Below are positions 7,440 to 39,322 of a stretch of 64,000 nucleotides of DNA, piece by piece. The translations under genes were made by a program, and so were the position numbers. The DNA lies in assembly GCF_029395675.1 (NCBI RefSeq), contig NZ_CP115184.1:1426001-1490000 (forward strand), written 5' to 3'. Position 1 is the first letter of the stretch. Each line of letters opens with the position of its first letter. Under the pieces are notes generated by a model, which saw only the letters and a program-made list of their open reading frames with translations, was not told the DNA's origin and searched no databases. The stretch is from Janibacter cremeus (GTDB lineage Bacteria; Actinomycetota; Actinomycetes; Actinomycetales; Dermatophilaceae).

Positions 7440-8440
7440 GCCTGCCCCGCCCCCTTCCCCCGTCGCTGCGCGGTCGCATCGCCCTGACCGCTGCCGCCTA
7501 CGCCGTGATCACCCGTGCGGGCGAGCGCGGCCGGGAGGTCCTGCTGCAGCTGCGCCGCGGCACCGGCTACATGGACGGGTGGTGGGCCTGCGGCGCCGCC
7601 GGTCACCTCGAGGACGCCGAGTCCCCGAGTGAGGCGCTGGCGCAGGAGGCGCAGGAGGAGCTGGGCATCACGATCGAGGCCGCCGAGCCGTTGACGACGG
7701 TCCAGCGCTCCAACCCCCTGGGGCCGCTCGAGCAGCGCGCCGATTTCTTCTTCCACGTCACGCGGTGGTCGGGCGAGCCGACCCTGCTCGAGCCGGACAA
7801 GGCCGCCGAGCTGCGCTGGTTCCCGCTGGACGCCCTGCCCGAGCAGGTCGTGCCGCACGAGCGCCTGGTCCTGGAGGCGCTGCGGGAGGGGCACGTCCCT
7901 CCCTTCGTCGAGCGGGGCCACGACCAGCGGCTGACCCTCGTCGCGGCCCGCGGCTCCAACGGCGCCATCGGGGTCCACGGGGGCATGCCGTGGCACCTGC
8001 CGGAGGACCTGGCCCACTTCAAGGCCGTGACGATGGGCGGGGTGATGATCATGGGCCGGCGCACCTGGGACTCCATCGGTCGTGCGCTGCCGGGGCGCAC
8101 GACGATCGTGGTCACCTCCGACCGCGAGTGGTCCGCTCCGGGCGCACTCGTCGTCCACGACCTGCACGAGGCGATCTCGGTGGCCGGCCCCGGGGAGGTC
8201 TTCGTCGCCGGTGGCGGCGAGATCTACCGGCAGACGATCGCCCTGGCCTCCCGCCTGGAGCTGACCGAGGTGGACGCCGCACCCGAGGCCGAGGTCTTCT
8301 TCCCCCCGGTCGACCCGGGCACGTGGCGCGAGGTCGCCCGCACTCCGCGGGAGGGTTTCGCCTTCGTCACCTACGAGCGGCAACCGCAGACGTTCACCGA
8401 ATCAGATATAAACCAATATGGTTCATATCTGACCAAATGA
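7436..8440 (+). CDS. Nudix hydrolase-dihydrofolate reductase fusion
   Basis: A 334-residue two-domain protein. Residues about 15-155 are a Nudix hydrolase with box [18 protein letters not shown] then EELGI (residues 56-79; the canonical first Arg of REUxEE is Gln). Residues about 164-320 are a [34 protein letters not shown] with the substrate carboxylate, [13 protein letters not shown] and the NADPH motif [16 protein letters not shown] recycles the dihydrofolate made by ThyA, with which it overlaps by 4 nt; the Nudix domain could sanitize or hydrolyse nucleotides. The last 15 or so residues, rich in Asp/Asn/Tyr/Lys, are encoded by an AT-rich operator palindrome and are unlike normal DHFR ends. 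The domain calls are secure; the Nudix substrate is unknown. Confidence 0.92.
8402..8432 (+). promoter_or_regulatory. 31-bp near-perfect palindrome overlapping the satD promoter
   Basis: TCAGATAT (8402-8409) pairs with ATATCTGA (8425-8432), and inside it AACCA (8411-8415) pairs with TGGTT (8419-8423) around a central ATA; only positions 8410/8424 mismatch. It lies in the last codons of the Nudix-DHFR gene in an AT-rich patch unlike its surroundings. The satD -10 (TATGGT, 8444-8449) is 6 nt before the satD ATG, and a -35 placed 17 nt upstream (8421-8426) falls inside the palindrome, so a bound protein would block the promoter. The regulator is not known. Confidence 0.7.
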
Positions 8441-8455
8441 AGCTATGGTGTTCAC

Positions 8456-9085
8456 ATGACAGTGGTCGTCACGCTCATCGGTGACGTCGTCTCCTCGCGC
8501 AGCGCGCCGGACCGGCAGGAGCTGCACGCCCTCCTGCAGGAGACGCTCACCGCGGTCACCGCCGCGACGGACCCGATCCACCCCCTGCGCATCACCGTCG
8601 GTGACGAGTTCCAGGGCGCCTGGGAGCGACGCGGCCAGGCGCTGCACGCCGCCTTCCTCCTGCGCCTGAGCCTCCTCCCCCGGGTCGAGACCCGCTACGG
8701 CCTCGGCCGGGGGGAGGTGACCACGCTCGAGCAGGACGGCACGGTGCAGGACGGGCCCGGGTGGTGGAGTGCCCGCGAGGCGATCACCGCGGCGAAGGGG
8801 GCGGAGGCCGACGTCCGCTCCGACGGCCTCGTCGTGCGCACCCGCTGGCAGGAGGACGGCCCCACCGGCCCGGCGCTCGACGCGGCGGTCCGCCACCGCG
8901 ACCTCCTCGTCGCCGGCCTCGACGACCGCTCGCTGCGACTGCTGCGCGGCCTGCTCCAGCACCGGACCCAGCGCGCCCTGGCCGAGGAGGAGGGGATCAG
9001 CCCCACCGCGGTCTCCCGGCGGGTCCACCGCGACGGGCTCGAGCAGCTGGTCGCCATCGACGCCGACCTGTCGGTGCTGCCATGA
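8456..9085 (+). CDS. SatD-family protein with C-terminal helix-turn-helix
   Basis: A 209-residue protein resembling the SatD family, named after a streptococcal acid-tolerance locus and of unknown biochemical role. It begins TVVVTLIGDVVSSRSAPDRQ and has ITVGDEFQGAWER and ETRYGLGRGEV blocks that recall nucleotide-cyclase-like folds. It ends in RALAEEEGISPTAVSRRVHR, a helix-turn-helix of the sigma region 4 type, so it may bind DNA. Translation probably starts at the ATG at 8456 on a leaderless mRNA. It overlaps the membrane-protein gene by 4 nt, the usual partner arrangement for this family. Autoregulation through the upstream palindrome is my inference. Confidence 0.78.
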   Translation: MTVVVTLIGDVVSSRSAPDRQELHALLQETLTAVTAATDPIHPLRITVGDEFQGAWERRGQALHAAFLLRLSLLPRVETRYGLGRGEVTTLEQDGTVQDGPGWWSAREAITAAKGAEADVRSDGLVVRTRWQEDGPTGPALDAAVRHRDLLVAGLDDRSLRLLRGLLQHRTQRALAEEEGISPTAVSRRVHRDGLEQLVAIDADLSVLP

Positions 9086-9903
9086 GCGTCTTCGCCCTCC
9101 TGCTCGTCGCCGTCGGCGTCGCCGACCTCGCCCGCAGCATCGTCGAGCAGCGCGGGGCCCACGACGACGCCGCCACCCGCTGGCGCGTCCACCGCATCGG
9201 CACCGAGGTGGGCATCGTCTCGCTCTGGCTGGGCGCCGCCCTAGCCGGCCTGCTGACCACCACGTCCGGGTGGCTCCTCGTGGCACTGGCGACCGTCTCG
9301 CTCGCCGCGTGGCTGCTCGTCTCCGGGTGGGCCCTGACGCGCGACCGCGGTCATGTGCTCGCCCTGGCCACGCTGGCCGGCGGGCTCGTGGCCCAGCTCG
9401 CCCTCGCCGGATGGGCACCGCAGGCCGGCGGTGCGTTGGCACGGTGGATCGCCTGGGCGGACCTGCCGTGGACCCCCGAGCCGGGGCGTGCGCTGCTCAT
9501 CGCCGGGCTCGCGCTGGTGCAGCTGAGCACCGGCAACCTCATCGTGCGACTCGTCCTGATCAGCACCGGGGCCATGGTCCCCGCGCCGGCGACCGACCGG
9601 ACGCCGGCCGCCGATCCCGCGCCGGAGGCGGACCAGCCGTCCGACACCCTCAAGGGCGGTCGGCTCCTCGGTCCGCTGGAGCGGCTCTTCATCCTCGGCC
9701 TCGGCCTCGCCGGCCAGGTGACCGCGGCCGGGATCGTCATCGCCGCCAAGGGCCTGATCCGCTGGCCGGAGCTGCGCTCGCACGCCCGGCCGAGCTCCGC
9801 GGGTGGACGGCACTCGGACATCGACACCGTCACGGAGTACTTCCTCGTCGGCAGCTTCGTCAGCTGGCTCGTGGCCCTCGGCGCACTCGTCCTCGCCGTC
9901 TGA
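9082..9903 (+). CDS. Polytopic membrane protein paired with SatD (DUF3307-like C-terminus)
   Basis: 273 residues with about seven hydrophobic segments and a cytoplasmic-looking Pro/Ala/Asp-rich loop at about residues 168-190. The C-terminal part GPLERLFILGLGLAGQVTA, AAKGLIRWPEL and EYFLVGSFVSWLVALG resembles the end of DUF3307 proteins, which often accompany satD, whereas the N-terminal half is not one I recognise. It shares an ATGA overlap with satD, so the two are co-translated. Function unknown; a membrane sensor or effector controlled together with SatD is the reasonable guess. It ends 11 bp before a convergent gene with no visible terminator between them. Confidence 0.7.
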   Translation: MSVFALLLVAVGVADLARSIVEQRGAHDDAATRWRVHRIGTEVGIVSLWLGAALAGLLTTTSGWLLVALATVSLAAWLLVSGWALTRDRGHVLALATLAGGLVAQLALAGWAPQAGGALARWIAWADLPWTPEPGRALLIAGLALVQLSTGNLIVRLVLISTGAMVPAPATDRTPAADPAPEADQPSDTLKGGRLLGPLERLFILGLGLAGQVTAAGIVIAAKGLIRWPELRSHARPSSAGGRHSDIDTVTEYFLVGSFVSWLVALGALVLAV

Positions 9904-9914
9904 CGGTCAGCACC

Positions 9915-10892
9915 TCAGCCCGGCACGTCCACGTACGCCAGCGCCGGCTCGACCAGGCTGCCGAGCCACACCCGCCCGTCGTGCTCCCGCACACCGGTGG
10001 CCATGTGCCAGTCGGCAGCATCCGCGGACAGGTCGTGCACGAGCGAGCCGTCGGCGTCGTGGGCGGTGACCCGCACGGTGCGCTTCGGCGCCGGCTTGAG
10101 GGCGTCGGGCAGCCGCAGGGCGAGGTCGCGCACCCGCTGCGGGGCCCGCTGGAGCATCCCCAGGACGGGGTCGGGCGGCGAGGCGACGGCCGACCAGACC
10201 AGCCCGTCCGAGCCGCACGAGATGTTGTCCGGGTAGCCGGGCAGGTCGGCGACGAAGAGCTGCTCCGCGGACGGCTCGACGGCACTCCCCTCGCTGCCGA
10301 CGACGTGGCCGGCCACGGGCAGACCACCGCTGAGCCCGACCCGGCGGATGCGACCGAGCGCGCACTCCGCGACGAGGACGGCGCTCTCGTCCGGCAGCAG
10401 GGCGACGCCGTTGGCGAAGGCCAGCCCGTCCAGGACCGTCGTGACGCTCCCGTCGACCGCACGCCGCAGGAGCCGCCCGCTGCGGGTGTGCTCGATGAGG
10501 TCGGACTTCCACACCTCGACACCCCAGTGCCGGGAGGAGTCGCTGAACCAGATCGTCCCGTCGGCGGCCACCGCCGCGTTGTTGGTGAAGACCATCGCGG
10601 CCCCGTCGACCTCGGTGACCAGCTCCTCGATCATCCCGGTCCCGTCCACGTCGACGGCGAGGAGACCACGCCGCGCGTCGCACACGAGCAGCCGACCGTC
10701 CGGCAGCCACTCCAGCCCGAGGGGCCGCCCACCCGTATGCACCACCCGCTCGCTGCGACGCCCGTCCGGGGTGACGGCGATGACGGCGCCGTCCGCGGTC
10801 CCGGTCCACACCCGTCCGTCGCGCCCCACGAGCACGTCCTCGGCCCCGGGGCCGGGGACCGGCACGACCGTCAGCGGCAGCATCGTCTCCAT
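9915..10892 (-). CDS. SMP-30/strictosidine-synthase-like beta-propeller protein
   Basis: 325-residue beta-propeller. Repeated blade signatures such as GLEWLPDGRLLVCDARRGLL, NNAAVAADGTIWFSDSS and GLAFANGVALLPDESAVLV match the strictosidine synthase/gluconolactonase superfamily, whose members hydrolyse lactones or esters with a metal bound in the central channel. The block FTNNAAV...WFSDSSRHWG is the strictosidine-synthase-like signature. No signal peptide is visible, so it should be cytoplasmic. Start taken as the ATG with complement at 10890-10892; METM leaves a second ATG three codons in. It is a single gene, convergent with the satD pair. Substrate unknown. Confidence 0.72.
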   Translation of the reverse strand: METMLPLTVVPVPGPGAEDVLVGRDGRVWTGTADGAVIAVTPDGRRSERVVHTGGRPLGLEWLPDGRLLVCDARRGLLAVDVDGTGMIEELVTEVDGAAMVFTNNAAVAADGTIWFSDSSRHWGVEVWKSDLIEHTRSGRLLRRAVDGSVTTVLDGLAFANGVALLPDESAVLVAECALGRIRRVGLSGGLPVAGHVVGSEGSAVEPSAEQLFVADLPGYPDNISCGSDGLVWSAVASPPDPVLGMLQRAPQRVRDLALRLPDALKPAPKRTVRVTAHDADGSLVHDLSADAADWHMATGVREHDGRVWLGSLVEPALAYVDVPG

Positions 10893-23889: not shown

Positions 23890-24728
23890 GCCGGTCCACC
23901 GACACCGGATCCGCGGGGGCGACGGCAGTCGCCCCCGCCGGGGGCCTCCTCGCCCTGAACAACGTGGAGGTCATCTACGACGACGTCATCCTCGTGCTGC
24001 GTGGGCTCTCCCTGGCCGTCCCGGAGGGCGAGATCGTCGCCCTCCTCGGCTCCAACGGAGCGGGCAAGTCGACGACCCTGAAGGCCGTCTCGGGCCTGCT
24101 GCCCAGTGAGCGAGGCGAGGTCACCGACGGGTCGGTGACCTTCGCGGGCACGGACATCACCACGATGGACGCACCCGACCGGGTGCGAGAGGGGATGAGC
24201 CTGTGCATGGAGGGGCGACACGTCTTCCAGCACCTCACCATCGCGGAGAACCTCACCGCCGGTGCCTACACGCAGAAGAACACCTCCGACGACCTCGACC
24301 TGGTCTACGAGTTCTTCCCCAAGCTGGCCGACATGCGCAGCCGGGTCGCGGGATACCTCTCCGGTGGCGAGCAGCAGATGCTCGCGATCGGGCGAGCCCT
24401 GATGGCGCGTCCGAAGCTGCTCATGCTCGACGAGCCGTCCCTGGGCCTCGCGCCCCTGCTCGTGCAGGAGATCTTCGGCTACATCAAGCGGCTGAACCAG
24501 GAGCAGGGCCTGACCGTGCTCGTCGTGGAGCAGAACGCCCGCCGCGCTCTCGAGGTGGCCGACCGCGGCTACATCATGGAGCAGGGACGCATCGTGCTCG
24601 AGGGCTCGGCCGCCGAGCTGCAGGAGAACCCGGACGTCAAGGAGTTCTACCTGGGGCTCGGCGACGAGGGCGGACGCAAGAGCTACCGCGACGTCAAGCA
24701 CTACCGGCGTCGCAAGCGCTGGCTCTGA
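23886..24728 (+). CDS. ABC transporter ATPase, LivF type
   Basis: 280 residues from GTG 23886, overlapping the binding-protein stop (GTGA). LALNNVEVIYDDVILVLRGL, Walker A LLGSNGAGKSTTLKAVSGLL, CMEGRHVFQHLTIAENLTAG, signature YLSGGEQQMLAIGRALM and Walker B LLMLDEPSLGLAP are all canonical for LivF. The C-terminus is extended and basic (YRDVKHYRRRKRWL). It completes the two-ATPase, two-permease set. Confidence 0.94.
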   Translation: MSRSTDTGSAGATAVAPAGGLLALNNVEVIYDDVILVLRGLSLAVPEGEIVALLGSNGAGKSTTLKAVSGLLPSERGEVTDGSVTFAGTDITTMDAPDRVREGMSLCMEGRHVFQHLTIAENLTAGAYTQKNTSDDLDLVYEFFPKLADMRSRVAGYLSGGEQQMLAIGRALMARPKLLMLDEPSLGLAPLLVQEIFGYIKRLNQEQGLTVLVVEQNARRALEVADRGYIMEQGRIVLEGSAAELQENPDVKEFYLGLGDEGGRKSYRDVKHYRRRKRWL

Positions 24729-35304: not shown

Positions 35305-35580
35305 TCAGCCCAGGGAACGGATCGTGATGCGCTTCGGCCCGGTCACCTCGACCTCGACCGTCCAGACGCGCTCCCCCGACAGCCTCGGGACGAGGTCGGG
35401 CGGTACGAGCGCGGTGTACTCGCTCCCCACGGCGTCGGTCATGAGGTCCGCGGCGGCCCCCACCGGTGACGTCCGCTCGACGAGGACGACGGCGGTGGAC
35501 CATCCGTCAGCCGGTCCGGGCCGGGGCTCCCCCCTCGGCGTGCACCGCACGAGGGAACGGTTCTCGATCGCCTGCACCAT
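35305..35580 (-). CDS. Small hypothetical protein (91 aa), last gene of the ATP-grasp operon
   Basis: I do not recognise a family. ATG complement at 35578-35580, 30 bp after the ATP-grasp stop on the same strand, so probably the fourth gene of that operon. Mixed composition with a predicted beta-rich second half (YTALVPPDLVPRLSGERVWT, VEVEVTGPKRITIRSLG); no signal peptide or membrane segment. Its size would fit an accessory or recognition protein. It lacks the repeated Thr/Lys-Asp/Glu pattern expected of a classical graspetide core, so I do not call it a precursor. Confidence 0.6.
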   Translation of the reverse strand: MVQAIENRSLVRCTPRGEPRPGPADGWSTAVVLVERTSPVGAAADLMTDAVGSEYTALVPPDLVPRLSGERVWTVEVEVTGPKRITIRSLG

Positions 35581-35610
35581 GCTGTCTCTCCTCGCTCCCC
35601 ACGCAGCTCC

Positions 35611-36525
35611 TCACGCCACGTCACGTCCAGCCAACCACGTGGCCAGCGAGTGCGCGATGGGCATCCCGGTCGGTTCCTCGAATGAGCTGTAGGCGGGCGA
35701 GGGGTTCACCTCGAAGCACCACCACTGGTCGTCCTCGTCCCTGAGCAGGTCGACCCCGGCCAGCGGCAGGTCGAGGGCCTCCGCGAGAGCGACGCATCGC
35801 TCGGCCACCTCGTCGGGAAGGGCCACCGGGGTCATCGTGGCACCGGCACCCCCTTCGGCATAGCGGTAGTCGATGGTGTCGGAGTCGACGGCGCAGGCGT
35901 GCACCCGGTCGCCGACGACGTGGACCCGCACATTGGTCCCGACGACCAGCCGCTGGAACTGGGTGGGCAGGTCCCGGACCCGGTCGAGGTCGTCGAGCCG
36001 CGGACCGGTCAGCTCGTGGACGACTGATCGCACACCGCTGACCGACTTGTAGACGACCCGGCCGTGCCGCCGCAGGAAGTGCCGCACCGCCTCCGGGTCA
36101 CTCGTGACGACGGTCTCGGGGACATCGAATCCGTGGGAGCGGATCAGGGCCGCCTGGTAGGGCTTGGAGGTGTTGCTCATCATCGCCGTGGGCCGATTCG
36201 CCACGCGAAGGGGGGCGACGTCGGCCCAGGCGGTCAGGGCCGTGAGGGCCGCTGCCTGCCGACGGTCGCGCAGGGGGTCCGGCGGGAGTCCCACCACCTC
36301 GGGGCCGCTGAGCCGGAGGTAGAGCCCGCTGGCCCGCGACAGGTCCACCCTGGCCCCGTACCGTCCCGCGTGCGCCCCGACCACCCCGCCGCGCACCGCG
36401 ACCTCCAGCTGCCAGGCGTGGGCCTCCTCCTCCGCGAGCAGCAGCACCTCGATCCCCTCGCCGGCGGCACGATCGAGCAGCAGGCTCACGGGCGGCTCGG
36501 CCGGGCTGCCGACGACGATGATCAC
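35611..36525 (-). CDS. ATP-grasp ligase, MvdD/TgmB/RimK-like
   Basis: 304 residues. A pre-ATP-grasp domain (IIVVGSPAEPPVSLLLDRAA) leads to VANRPTAMMSNTSKPYQAAL, IRSHGFDVPETVVTSDPEAV and VVYKSVSGVRSVVHELTG with a nucleotide-contacting lysine. The acidic metal-binding end follows: LAGVDLLRDEDDQWWCFEVN then PSPAYSSFEEPTG. This pattern (VNPSPAYSSFE) is that of the ribosomal-peptide-modifying ATP-grasp enzymes, which form ester or amide links between Asp/Glu carboxylates and Ser/Thr/Lys side chains, and of RimK. Start is GTG (complement 36523-36525), in a GTGA overlap with the upstream gene. Substrate not proven; see the repeat tail of the neighbouring protease. Confidence 0.85.
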   Translation of the reverse strand: MIIVVGSPAEPPVSLLLDRAAGEGIEVLLLAEEEAHAWQLEVAVRGGVVGAHAGRYGARVDLSRASGLYLRLSGPEVVGLPPDPLRDRRQAAALTALTAWADVAPLRVANRPTAMMSNTSKPYQAALIRSHGFDVPETVVTSDPEAVRHFLRRHGRVVYKSVSGVRSVVHELTGPRLDDLDRVRDLPTQFQRLVVGTNVRVHVVGDRVHACAVDSDTIDYRYAEGGAGATMTPVALPDEVAERCVALAEALDLPLAGVDLLRDEDDQWWCFEVNPSPAYSSFEEPTGMPIAHSLATWLAGRDVA

Positions 36526-37364
36526 GCGGCCCGCCGCCCTTCGTGCTCCGCGGCGCGCTGCTCGAGGTGGCGGGCCAGCATCAGCAGGTGCGTGGGGAGG
36601 GTCGACGAGGGCACCGGGTCGACCCCCAGGACCTGCGGACGGTCGCGGACCGGGCCGGGCGCCGCCAACCGGACGGCGGCCACCTCCAGGTCCAGGGACC
36701 GCACGAGCGCACGAAGGGGGTCGTGCAGGTCCGCAGGACCGTCGACCTCGCTGCCGCAGACGAGGGCGTCCCAGCGACCCGGCGCGATGTCCGACAGGCC
36801 GACCGCGGGCTCGGCCAGGGGCGGACCGCCGGCACCGGGTGGGAAGCCGTCGAGGTGGCGCGGAGTGCCCCCGTCGGGCCAGCTGCGCCGCCCCCCACCG
36901 GGCCACCGTCCGGGGGGCACCCGAGCGGCATCCGTGGCGAGCAGCAGGTCGGGAGTGGCCAGGCCGACGGCCGCGCAGGCGACGGCGACCCGCAGGGGGT
37001 CCGGCACGGTGCCGCACAGCGCGCTCGGGGTCGGTCGGTTGACCACGACCTCGCGCCGGCTCCACAGCCACGACATCGCCACGGCGTGCATCTCCGCCGC
37101 TGCGTAGTCGTCATCGCTCGGCCGGGCGAAGGGTCGGGCACCGAGGGTCGCCGCGCGACACCAGATGACGTCGTACCCCGGGGGATCGGGCACGGACTCG
37201 ACCGCGCACGGGCCCGACTCGGGGTTGAGGGTCATGGGGTGACGCGCGAGCTCCCGGTCGTCGACCACGGTGACCCGCCCGACCCCGCGGTGACGCAGCA
37301 GCCCTGCCAGGGCCGGCACCACCACGTCACCGGGTGGGGCGATGAGCAGGATCGACGGGGACAT
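36522..37364 (-). CDS. ATP-grasp-like protein lacking the catalytic half
   Basis: 280 residues. It opens with a Rossmann-like SPSILLIAPPGDVVVPALAG and carries VVNRPTPSALCGTVPDPLRV followed by AVACAAVGLATPDLLLATD. This lines up with VANRPTAMMSNTSKPYQAAL and IRSHGFDVPETVVTSD of the adjacent ATP-grasp enzyme. The downstream ATP-grasp motifs (phosphate-contacting lysine, EVNPSPA) are absent; the C-terminal half instead is Pro/Gly-rich and ends in LPTHLLMLARHLEQRAAEHE. I infer a diverged paralogue that keeps the pre-ATP-grasp domain, perhaps a substrate-binding partner of the active ligase. It starts 8 bp after the protease stop and overlaps the ATP-grasp start by 4 nt. Confidence 0.7.
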   Translation of the reverse strand: MSPSILLIAPPGDVVVPALAGLLRHRGVGRVTVVDDRELARHPMTLNPESGPCAVESVPDPPGYDVIWCRAATLGARPFARPSDDDYAAAEMHAVAMSWLWSRREVVVNRPTPSALCGTVPDPLRVAVACAAVGLATPDLLLATDAARVPPGRWPGGGRRSWPDGGTPRHLDGFPPGAGGPPLAEPAVGLSDIAPGRWDALVCGSEVDGPADLHDPLRALVRSLDLEVAAVRLAAPGPVRDRPQVLGVDPVPSSTLPTHLLMLARHLEQRAAEHEGRRAA

Positions 37365-37372
37365 CGGTGGCC

Positions 37373-39322
37373 TCAGGTGGGTGGCAGGGTGTCGAAGCGT
37401 GCCTTCGCCTCCGGCGACCCCTCCTCGACCGCCGCCCGGAGCGCGGCGGGGTCGGGTCCCCCGCTGGTGCGCCCCAGGTCCGGCCGCTCGGACTCGCCGA
37501 TGAACGGCTCCGCACCGGCCGCCCCCTCCTGGTCCGCAGCCGCACCACCCCACGAGGCGAGGAGGGCGTGGACGGTCGCCTCGAGAGCGTCCAACCGCTC
37601 GGTCGTGCGGTCCTGCGGCGACCCGCCCTGGCCGGACGGCGTCGCCCACCCGGATGCTCCGGGGGAGAAGGGTCCCTCGGCGTACTTCTCACCGAACTTC
37701 GTGTCGGGGAACTTCTCCTCGCGGATCCCCTTCCCGTCGCGCAGGTCCTTCAGCGGGTCGTTGTCCCGCAGGTCCTTGAACGGCTTGGGGTCCTCGCGCA
37801 CGTCCTTGAACCGCTTGTCACCGTCACGCAGGTCCTTGACCTGCTTGAGGTCGATGTCCGGCCGACGCTTCCACCTGTCGTCGCGGGCGTCCTTGAGGTC
37901 CTTGAACTTGGGCGGCATGAAGCAGCGCACCTTCACCTGCACGGTCATCGCGGCGGCCGCGGCGGGGATGCCCGTGATCTCCACGCAGGTGGACGCCCCG
38001 GCGAAGGACTTGCTGCTCGGGGTGGTCGTCTCCGTGAAGGAGGTGTTGTTCGACGAGCCCGGGTAGGGGTCACCGTCATCGCCGCGGTTGGCATTGAGCT
38101 CCAGGTGCCGGTTGCCGTCCGCCTGGAGCAGCCCGACCTTGTAGTGCGCCTCGTTGCTGTTCCCGGCGACGGCCTCGTCGATGTGCCAGATGAGCAGGCC
38201 ACCGCCGGGCAGCGACTGGTCGTAGCCGGTGCGCTGTCGGTTCTCCACGAGGAAGTACTCGTTCCCCCCTCCTCCGTCCTTCCACAACCGGTAGGCACTG
38301 CGGCCGGTCTTGATGTCGTTGATGGTGACGGTGGCATTGGTCGACTGCACCACCACATTCGCCCAGCCCTGGTTGACCTTGCACCAGGCAGAGGGGTGCG
38401 TGGGCCGGTCACCCCCGCCTCCCCAGGAACCACCTCCCATGAGGCACCAGTTGCCGACCCCCTCGGAGGTGCCGTCGGTGTCGTAGAGATCGGGCCAGCC
38501 GAAGACGAGGTGTCCGAGCTCGTGCGCGCTCACCCCGATCTTCGCGTCCTCCGGGATGGTGAGGTAGGCGTAGACCTTGGTGCTGTCCACGGTGCGGTGG
38601 GCGGGCAGGACCCACTTGTGCGACCAGATGTCCCCGGCCGCGCCGGTCTCCTCGGCGCCCCGGCCGGCATGCACCACGATGAAGGCGTCGACAAACCCGT
38701 TGCCGTCGTTGTCGTACGGGTCGAAGTCCACATCGGCGTCGGCCGCGGACAGGGCGTCGTCGGCCAGGGTCCGGGCATTCGGTGCGGTGGACTGAGTGCC
38801 GTTGTCGGTTCCGGCGTAGGCGGCCAGCGTCCGCGGCATCCGGTACGGGCCGACGACCTCCCCGGTGATGGTCACGAGTCCTCCGGACACATCGGAGAAG
38901 TACTCCGTCACGCTCCCGTCCGCGAGCGTGCCGTGCGAGAAGAAGAGCGTGTCGAAGCGGTCGTGGACGTCCGTGCCCATCTCCCGGTCGGAGAAGTCCG
39001 CCAGGACGACGACGACCCGCACGTCCCCGCGCAGCGGCGCACGGTCCAGGGCGGCACGTTGTGCCACCGCCGCCGTGGTGCCGGTCGGAAAGTACGTGCC
39101 CGGGAAGATGAGTCCGTCGTCGAACCCGACGTGGTCGGGCGCCTTGCGGGTCAGCTGGCCGGCCAGACCCCCGCTGACCTGCTCGCGTGCCTGGTCCCGC
39201 AACCTGGTGAACTGCTCCTTGAGCGTGTCGTTGAGCTCCGGCGCCGGCGCGACCACGCACAGGTCGTCCACGCGGTGTGCGCGGACGGTGTGGTGGCGTG
39301 CGGCATCGCTGTAACCGTTCAT
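37373..39322 (-). CDS. M6-family-like metalloprotease with Lys/Asp-rich repeat tail, no signal peptide
   Basis: 649 residues. The catalytic domain shows RVVVVLADFSDREMGTDVHD, VTEYFSDVSGGLVTITGEVV, YDNDGNGFVDAFIVVHAG, the zinc motif HELGH (residues 267-271) continuing LVFGWPDLYDTDG, and WCLMGGGSWGGGG: the immune-inhibitor-A (M6) plan. Family members are normally secreted, but this one starts MNGYSDAARHHTVRAHRVDD with no signal peptide; the ATG (complement 39320-39322) has a good GGGGGAG site, so the start is sound. Residues about 472-529 are a charged repeat (KDLRD-type unit about every ten residues), then a Pro/Ser/Gly-rich stretch and a helix RLDALEATVHALLASWG. First gene of the four-gene operon with the ATP-grasp enzyme; the tail may be its modification target (inference). 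Confidence 0.82.
   Translation of the reverse strand: MNGYSDAARHHTVRAHRVDDLCVVAPAPELNDTLKEQFTRLRDQAREQVSGGLAGQLTRKAPDHVGFDDGLIFPGTYFPTGTTAAVAQRAALDRAPLRGDVRVVVVLADFSDREMGTDVHDRFDTLFFSHGTLADGSVTEYFSDVSGGLVTITGEVVGPYRMPRTLAAYAGTDNGTQSTAPNARTLADDALSAADADVDFDPYDNDGNGFVDAFIVVHAGRGAEETGAAGDIWSHKWVLPAHRTVDSTKVYAYLTIPEDAKIGVSAHELGHLVFGWPDLYDTDGTSEGVGNWCLMGGGSWGGGGDRPTHPSAWCKVNQGWANVVVQSTNATVTINDIKTGRSAYRLWKDGGGGNEYFLVENRQRTGYDQSLPGGGLLIWHIDEAVAGNSNEAHYKVGLLQADGNRHLELNANRGDDGDPYPGSSNNTSFTETTTPSSKSFAGASTCVEITGIPAAAAAMTVQVKVRCFMPPKFKDLKDARDDRWKRRPDIDLKQVKDLRDGDKRFKDVREDPKPFKDLRDNDPLKDLRDGKGIREEKFPDTKFGEKYAEGPFSPGASGWATPSGQGGSPQDRTTERLDALEATVHALLASWGGAAADQEGAAGAEPFIGESERPDLGRTSGGPDPAALRAAVEEGSPEAKARFDTLPPT
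37736..37909 (-). repeat. Repeat-coding segment, KDLRD-type units in the protease tail
   Basis: Encodes residues about 472-529 of the M6-like protein. Units FKDLKD, VKDLRD, FKDVRE, FKDLRD, LKDLRD place the KD pair at residues 474, 496, 506, 516 and 525, i.e. a spacing of 22, 10, 10 and 9. Lys and Asp/Glu alternate throughout. The DNA repeats CAGGTCCTT in step on the + strand. Confidence 0.85.

Follow-up and report, generated by a model that had tools for sequence, protein, structure and literature searches.

A 64,000-nt stretch of the complete, 3.5 Mb genome of Janibacter cremeus (contig NZ_CP115184.1, positions 1,426,001-1,490,000; hereafter the window) exhibits four minus-strand genes, at 39322-35305, that encode an M6-like metalloprotease with a C-terminal repeat tail, two ATP-grasp-type proteins (AG2 and AG1) and a 91-aa protein (p91). 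We propose, with a probability of about two in three, that the tail of this protease is a fused graspetide-like substrate of AG1/AG2, crosslinked through Lys-Asp/Glu isopeptide bonds, the protease itself being the cargo. The tail is regarded as the likely substrate because a conserved, portable motif and charged repeats adjoin a ligase of the graspetide type. The intergenic gaps are 8, -4 and 30 bases, confirming the tight spacing and the coordinates of a first-pass annotation of this DNA.

The protease, its tail and the two ATP-grasp proteins

The first gene (37373..39322; operon coordinates all refer to the window and its minus strand) encodes a 649-aa protein, the predicted substrate and carrier, which belongs to the M6 (immune inhibitor A-like) proteases with 260.8 bits against TIGR03296 (cut-off 110.8; E-value 2.2e-77) and 88.7 bits against PF05547 (cut-off 22; E-value 5.4e-25). 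The HExxH motif of the family is kept as HELGH (residues 267-271; 38510..38524), of which H267, E268, G270 and H271 are invariant among 14 aligned relatives. The nearest named relative is a protease of Janibacter terrae (76% identity). The first-pass annotation saw no signal peptide; by a crude hydrophobicity check, the sole test applied for one, one of 118 protease relatives scored above threshold.

Residues 468-549 of the protease (37676..37921), the predicted modified core, contain 15 lysines and 22 aspartates or glutamates. Six [FLV]K[DE]xx[DE] units start at residues 473, 476, 495, 505, 515 and 524, a count reached in none of 20,000 shuffles of the residues of the segment, and the Lys/Asp repeat tail already described in the first-pass annotation is thereby confirmed. 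An acidic residue stands at +4 from 11 of the 15 lysines against 3.9 expected (z = 4.6), this being the sole clearly enriched spacing in the tail. Prolines are found inside the repeats of many of the homologous tails described below. One search of the same genome for a second tail found none, the three other matches having E-values of 0.097 or worse.

Two features closer to the C-terminus had not been noted before: PFIGESERPDL (residues 606-616; 37475..37507), a predicted ligase docking ("follower") motif, and a terminal KARFD (residues 640-644; 37391..37405). In the alignment of 14 proteases F607, I608, R613, P614, L616, A639, K640 and D644 are invariant and P606 is nearly so, and the order is the same throughout, namely a charged segment, a short heptad-like stretch, FI-x4-RP-x-L and A-K-x-x-x-D. 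P606 is kept in 61 of 63 tail rows, a set that was picked by pattern, in which some rows repeat one locus, and of which the conservation is partly circular since the selection pattern fixes [FY]I and RP; conservation is fairly judged from the 14-protease alignment. At its PFI start the motif resembles the graspetide leader signature "Phhx(1,2)h" (PMC8939145; this source and the others given by PMC number are drawn on in part only). Of 57 tail-bearing M6 loci, 55 have a KxxxD after the motif, the exceptions being L072 and L081 (L-numbers designate our collected loci); the tail of L087 lacks it as well.

AG1 (304 aa, 35611..36525) begins with a GTG codon that overlaps the stop of AG2 by four bases. 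A profile of 14 AG1 sequences matches the structure 7drm with an E-value of 7.7e-43 over positions 7-319 of 321, and matches 7mgv, 5ig9, 7m4s, 5ig8 and 9bou, likewise over nearly all of the profile. We take these six to be synthetases of plesiocin, microviridins and their relatives, 7drm being presumably the plesiocin synthetase PsnB and 5ig8/5ig9 the microviridin synthetases MdnB/MdnC. AG1 is thus homologous over its full length to solved graspetide synthetases. K160, R200, D259, E272 and N274 are invariant in the 14 AG1s and align to like residues of 7drm, as seen by alignment and profile comparison for E272-V-N274 (35704..35712) and the E..N of that structure; presumably they serve in ATP and metal binding. 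The sequence VNPSPAYSSFE, which the first-pass annotation had noted in what it read as a complete ATP-grasp ligase, is present, and the full-length match agrees with that assignment. The best NCBIfam match is TIGR04187 with 125.8 bits, below the cut-off of 350; the RimK model TIGR00768 gives 71.2 bits, below its cut-off of 143.4, and the RimK family PF08443 gives an E-value of 8.9e-10, above the Pfam cut-off. As its scores lie under the curated TIGR04187 and NCBIfam RimK cut-offs, AG1 is classified as graspetide-synthetase-like and is not counted among the members of either model.

AG2 (280 aa, 36522..37364) has no Pfam or NCBIfam match up to an E-value of 1. A profile comparison (hhalign) aligns it with the AG1 family over most of its length (probability 98.6, E-value 8.5e-16), and the window AG2 reads G-V-D where AG1 has E272-V-N274. 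It is accordingly a degenerate paralogue of AG1 and not a cleanly cut half: AG2 had been described as lacking the catalytic half, of which the loss of the E..N pair stands, while the alignment over most of the length speaks against a simply truncated ATP-grasp. Within a set of 111 collected loci, some of them overlapping, each of the 60 that contain AG1 also has a distinct AG2. AG2 is probably a non-catalytic partner of AG1. At L049 (Fibrella aquatilis, 7938-10667) the tail and AG2 are fused in frame as one open frame, an isolated case that could stem from faulty assembly.

Co-occurrence of tail, motif and ligase

The protease alignment was scanned against one genome per species, and the best 80 of 121 relatives were retained as M6 loci, originating from Actinomycetota, Pseudomonadota, Acidobacteriota, Nitrospirota, Bacteroidota, Gemmatimonadota, Chloroflexota and archaea. 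Both tail and AG1 are present in 55 of these loci and neither in 22; a tail without AG1 is seen in three, two of them at contig ends (L043, L063) and one at a run of N (L065). The genome of L065 does contain AG1 and p91, adjoining another scaffold gap (L179/L180), and the contig of L033, one of the 22, ends inside a Lys/Glu-rich tail. A table limited to loci with at least 3.5 kb downstream, with the L065 gap excluded, leaves out 8 of the 80; the remaining 72 comprise 52 with tail and ligase, none with the tail only, none with the ligase only and 20 with neither. L089 and the frame-broken L087 escaped the initial motif pattern; L089 was caught by a wider one, and L087 was set as tail-bearing by hand, its tail sitting in the next open frame. 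The first-pass annotation had itself named the co-occurrence of tail and ligase as the point on which its reading could fail; on these counts the ligase pair and the tail-bearing protein go together.

Because relatedness inflates such a table, we built a tree of the catalytic domain, scoring L033, L043, L063 and L065 as unknown and omitting L087. On the best tree at least eight changes of the trait are required, five being forced by the starred branches, and the ligase changes together with the tail in five of five independent pairs (sign test, p = 0.0625). In this tree L071, recorded as a Burkholderiaceae metagenome-assembled genome, is very near the Phycicoccus locus L065 and is probably mis-binned.

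The reverse survey started from AG1, its 14-sequence profile being run against whole genomes at E-value <= 1e-40. Matches were found in 3 of 396 genomes in the phylum of the window and 12 of 186 in its family, in 10 of 198 genomes, at 12 places, in the phylum to which a Nitrospira locus belongs, and in 3 of 199 and 3 of 201 in the phyla of an Acidobacteria and a Chloroflexi locus; for the Thioploca and Fibrella loci, the respective phyla gave only the centres themselves (1 of 398 and 1 of 247). Three scans of viral contigs all led to a single contig (L115, IMG/VR), which was added. The resulting 30 loci do not include the window or the four centre loci found through the M6 protease. A search of plasmids with one AG1 gave three weak records.

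A protein with [FY]I-x4-RP-x-[L/V/M/I] adjoins AG1 in 25 of the 30 loci, and it is an M6 protease in eight and another protein in 17. Read from the tail sequences, a Lys/acid-rich segment accompanies the motif in 18 of the 25, weakly so in L115. The non-M6 carriers include a trypsin-like protein (L117; PF00089, 22.2 bits against a cut-off of 20.6), S8 peptidases (L183 and L145, the latter locus with a second tail-bearing protein that shows a weak, sub-cut-off lectin match), an M43 peptidase (L159), a kelch protein (L153), DUF6519 proteins beside phage-tail-like genes (L133, L115), two proteins without family match (L161, and L146, which adjoins a Tail_P2_I gene) and, at L162, a stand-alone protein whose motif lies close to the N-terminus and precedes Lys/Glu repeats. 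An adjacent candidate substrate with a leader-type motif and acceptor and donor residues, by which a graspetide system is recognized, is found here only in a non-standard, fused form. The sequences themselves show the homology, the motif, the repeats and their repeated co-occurrence with unrelated carriers. The carriers of L115, L133 and L146 adjoin Baseplate_J or Tail_P2_I-like genes; an ATP-grasp modification of phage-tail-like or contractile injection particles is possible there.

In the loci scanned for it, the motif lies within the last 110 residues of 16 out of 2,299 other open frames with a length of 250 aa or more, many of these frames not being real genes; every one of the 16 is a ligase-adjacent carrier, and together they represent 10 proteins in 9 places, some counted twice. 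Searching a database with the tail of L117 gave 44 clusters, 41 having the motif by pattern and 43 having GDSG, and KxxxD follows the motif in 41 of the 41 motif-bearing trypsin-like relatives; as this set was found through the tail, with genome context from L117 only, it indicates conservation within a serine-protease family and not co-occurrence. A tree of AG1, several forks of which are weakly supported, groups the ligases largely by carrier: M6; trypsin/S8/M43; phage-tail-like and kelch together with the orphan L116; PqqD-like and stand-alone. A consensus query found no convincing motif in the orphan genome G373 (best E-value 0.118).

The distribution of p91 (35305..35580) is different. 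Among the M6 loci, 54 of the 58 with a tail and 21 of the 22 without one contain it, the tail-less exception (L033) ending with its contig; it was undetected in the non-M6 ligase loci, among which L115 and L117 are uninformative as their contigs end right after AG1. Its occurrence with tail-less, ligase-less M6 proteases and its non-detection beside non-M6 carriers speak against p91 as a member of the ligase system, to which it had first been assigned. Homologues were seen at the window and at L080, L088, L090-L092 and L096-L111, beside M6 proteases with and without tails. This suggests that p91 and the M6 protease are an old protease-partner pair. The predicted structure of p91 (pLDDT 94.2) is an OB fold, with structural matches that include TIMP-1, no closer than SSB or PriB; that it is a protease inhibitor or chaperone is a guess. 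Elsewhere in the window, a selenocysteine tRNA gene is located at 24036-24113 on the minus strand.

A proposed mechanism and its alternatives

In the mechanism we favor, AG1, aided by its inactive paralogue AG2, would dock on PFI-x4-RPDL near the C-terminus of the protease and use ATP to link the side chains of lysines with those of Asp/Glu residues close by in the repeated K[DE]xx[DE] segment. The terminal KxxxD would probably be joined likewise, and the product would be a ladder of isopeptide-linked loops. The folded protease would be a cargo or effector on a crosslinked stalk, with the OB-fold p91 belonging to it perhaps as inhibitor or chaperone. What we infer is the docking, AG2 as a partner, the nature and position of the bonds and the purpose that they serve. 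That the ligase may crosslink Lys and Asp in the tail was a suggestion of the first-pass annotation: the co-occurrence of tail and ligase and the homology of AG1 support an action of AG1/AG2 on the tail, and the isopeptide chemistry is a prediction. Its companion suggestion, of a protease domain that processes the tail or sets it free, finds no support. The protease is better read as cargo because the motif is also carried by non-proteases, namely the DUF6519 proteins of L133 and L115, the kelch protein of L153, the stand-alone protein of L162 and the protein with the weak lectin match of L145.

Several observations weigh against this mechanism. The p-value of 0.0625 is the floor for five independent pairs, and the two surveys overlap, at least three of the eight M6 loci of the AG1 survey (L065, L068, L078) being already in the M6 set. 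In seven of the 30 loci (L147-L152, L163) the motif is N-terminal on a small protein downstream of AG1 and no repeats are present; two of these proteins were scanned and match PqqD. Two loci (L116, L185) have AG1 and a truncated AG2 with no partner protein found, and three (L160, L186, L187) have distant ligases (E-values 7e-44 to 4e-42) without AG2 and without the motif, although each adjoins a Lys/Asp or Lys/Asp-Glu repeat protein, one being an M43 peptidase with LKFRDDP repeats of about nine residues. The L115 carrier has only 4 lysines in the 140 residues before the motif. The favored Lys-acid spacing varies by carrier, from +4 in the window to +1/+5 in the trypsin-like proteins, +3/+7 in L146 and +5 in L162, so that no single K(i)-D/E(i+4) spacing applies to every carrier; with a spacing that is periodic yet variable, the rings may not all be of one size, or the repeats may in part have a structural role. 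Lastly, charged repeats also suit a plain helical stalk.

Two side observations concern these same loci. Beyond their repeats, L160 and L187 have a PF[I/V]L[S/T]T stretch in common. L151 also has transglutaminase-like and ABC transporter genes, a gene set that we take to resemble a lasso-type cluster.

The stalk can be turned into an explanation of its own, in which the repeats are a charged stalk and nothing more and AG1 modifies the C-terminal end, with FI-x4-RP as leader and KxxxD as a one-ring core. This would restore the leader-before-core order described for microviridins (PMC8939145), and it agrees with the retention of KxxxD after the motif in 55 of 57 M6 tails and in 41 of 41 motif-bearing trypsin-like relatives, the latter set being tail-found and speaking for conservation only. 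We consider it unlikely, given that this KxxxD is missing not only from L072, L081 and L087 but also from the non-M6 carriers of L133, L159 and L115, that L133 and L159 nevertheless keep their repeats, that L162 has the motif first and the repeats after it, and that the prolines within the repeats of many tails are poor for a continuous helix.

Less probable still is that AG1/AG2 add free amino acids to the tail, by RimK-type glutamylation or similar, with no crosslinking. The matches of AG1 to the RimK models point that way (PF08443, E-value 8.9e-10; TIGR00768, 71.2 bits), but the latter score falls short of the cut-off of 143.4, and two S6-ligase/RimK structures match only from position 137 with weaker E-values, whereas graspetide synthetases match end to end. 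As for the proposal made for branches 7 and 8 of the ATP-grasp loci (PMC8939145), that the protease cuts other proteins and so supplies the ligases with peptides, the frequency of peptidases in such loci (PMC8939145) speaks in its favor; it would leave the tail unrelated to the ligases, and it seems to us very improbable here, as non-protease bearers occupy the same place with the same motif and tail-less M6 proteases have no ligases nearby.

Beyond the fused substrate that we propose, a wider reading is conceivable, though we hold it to be rather doubtful. On this view, Lys/acid tails with the FI-x4-RP docking motif would be portable marks that commit full-size proteins in general to crosslinking by ATP-grasp enzymes, possibly from one chain to another. 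The carriers, here peptidases from four families together with lectin-like, kelch and phage-tail-like proteins, would be welded into stalks, arrays or injection particles, and no small peptide would be released.

Relation to known graspetide systems

The synthetases of plesiocin (7drm) and microviridins (5ig8, 5ig9) resemble AG1 in the full-length profile match and in a recognition motif of the PFF/PFI type. Their substrates are short stand-alone peptides with an N-terminal leader and mostly ester bonds.

The corallotide system (CorA/CorB, graspetide group 15) is similar in its TIGR04187-type ligase (the best NCBIfam match of AG1, though below cut-off), its long repeated substrate, its Lys-Asp isopeptides and its KxxxD spacing, CorB closing repeated KxxxD units by K(i)-D(i+4) isopeptides; it differs by a stand-alone precursor of about 22 kDa, by an oxygenase and a beta-lactamase homologue, and by having no protease domain, and the portions of that account considered here make no mention of an AG2 (PMC13097080). 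A ligase that requires a partner protein is known from rosaritide (MirB/MirC), but that partner is a divergent PPIase-type protein and not an ATP-grasp paralogue (PMC13097080). ThfB is still directed by a leader moved to the C-terminal side of the core and can cyclize and crosslink proteins (PMC13003496, PMC12291112); the order is engineered there, whereas here the C-terminal order is natural and the proposed bonds are amides.

Makarova et al. (2022) described branches 7 and 8 of ATP-grasp loci with peptidases of unrelated families and no precursors, their precursor candidates being limited to <= 150 aa (PMC8939145). Branch 8, which we matched by description and not by accession, shares with our loci a truncated inactive ATP-grasp beside a complete one and the unrelated peptidases; no precursor was found there, whereas here the precursor would be the tail of the peptidase itself. 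Diverse neighboring protease families are likewise reported for graspetide group 32, where Carter et al. (2026) read them as possible maturation or resistance factors (PMC13097080). The portions of the two accounts considered here do not suggest that the proteases carry the substrate. No description of fused tails of this kind was found in the literature searched, which did not extend to most subscription papers or to any bioRxiv-only preprints. We judge the proposed fused substrate tail on a carrier protein to be a new form within the graspetide kind, and a general protein-crosslinking tag to be a larger claim.

The proposal offers a specific answer to a stated gap, that of ATP-grasp loci with peptidases but no precursor (PMC8939145): tails on unrelated proteins may explain why no substrate is known for enzymes of the branch 8 type. 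Most of the group would escape a precursor search that considers only small proteins. If the proposal is true, the docking motif and the repeats would constitute a portable tag, and graspetide chemistry would not only make small peptides but also covalently remodel the tails of large proteins.

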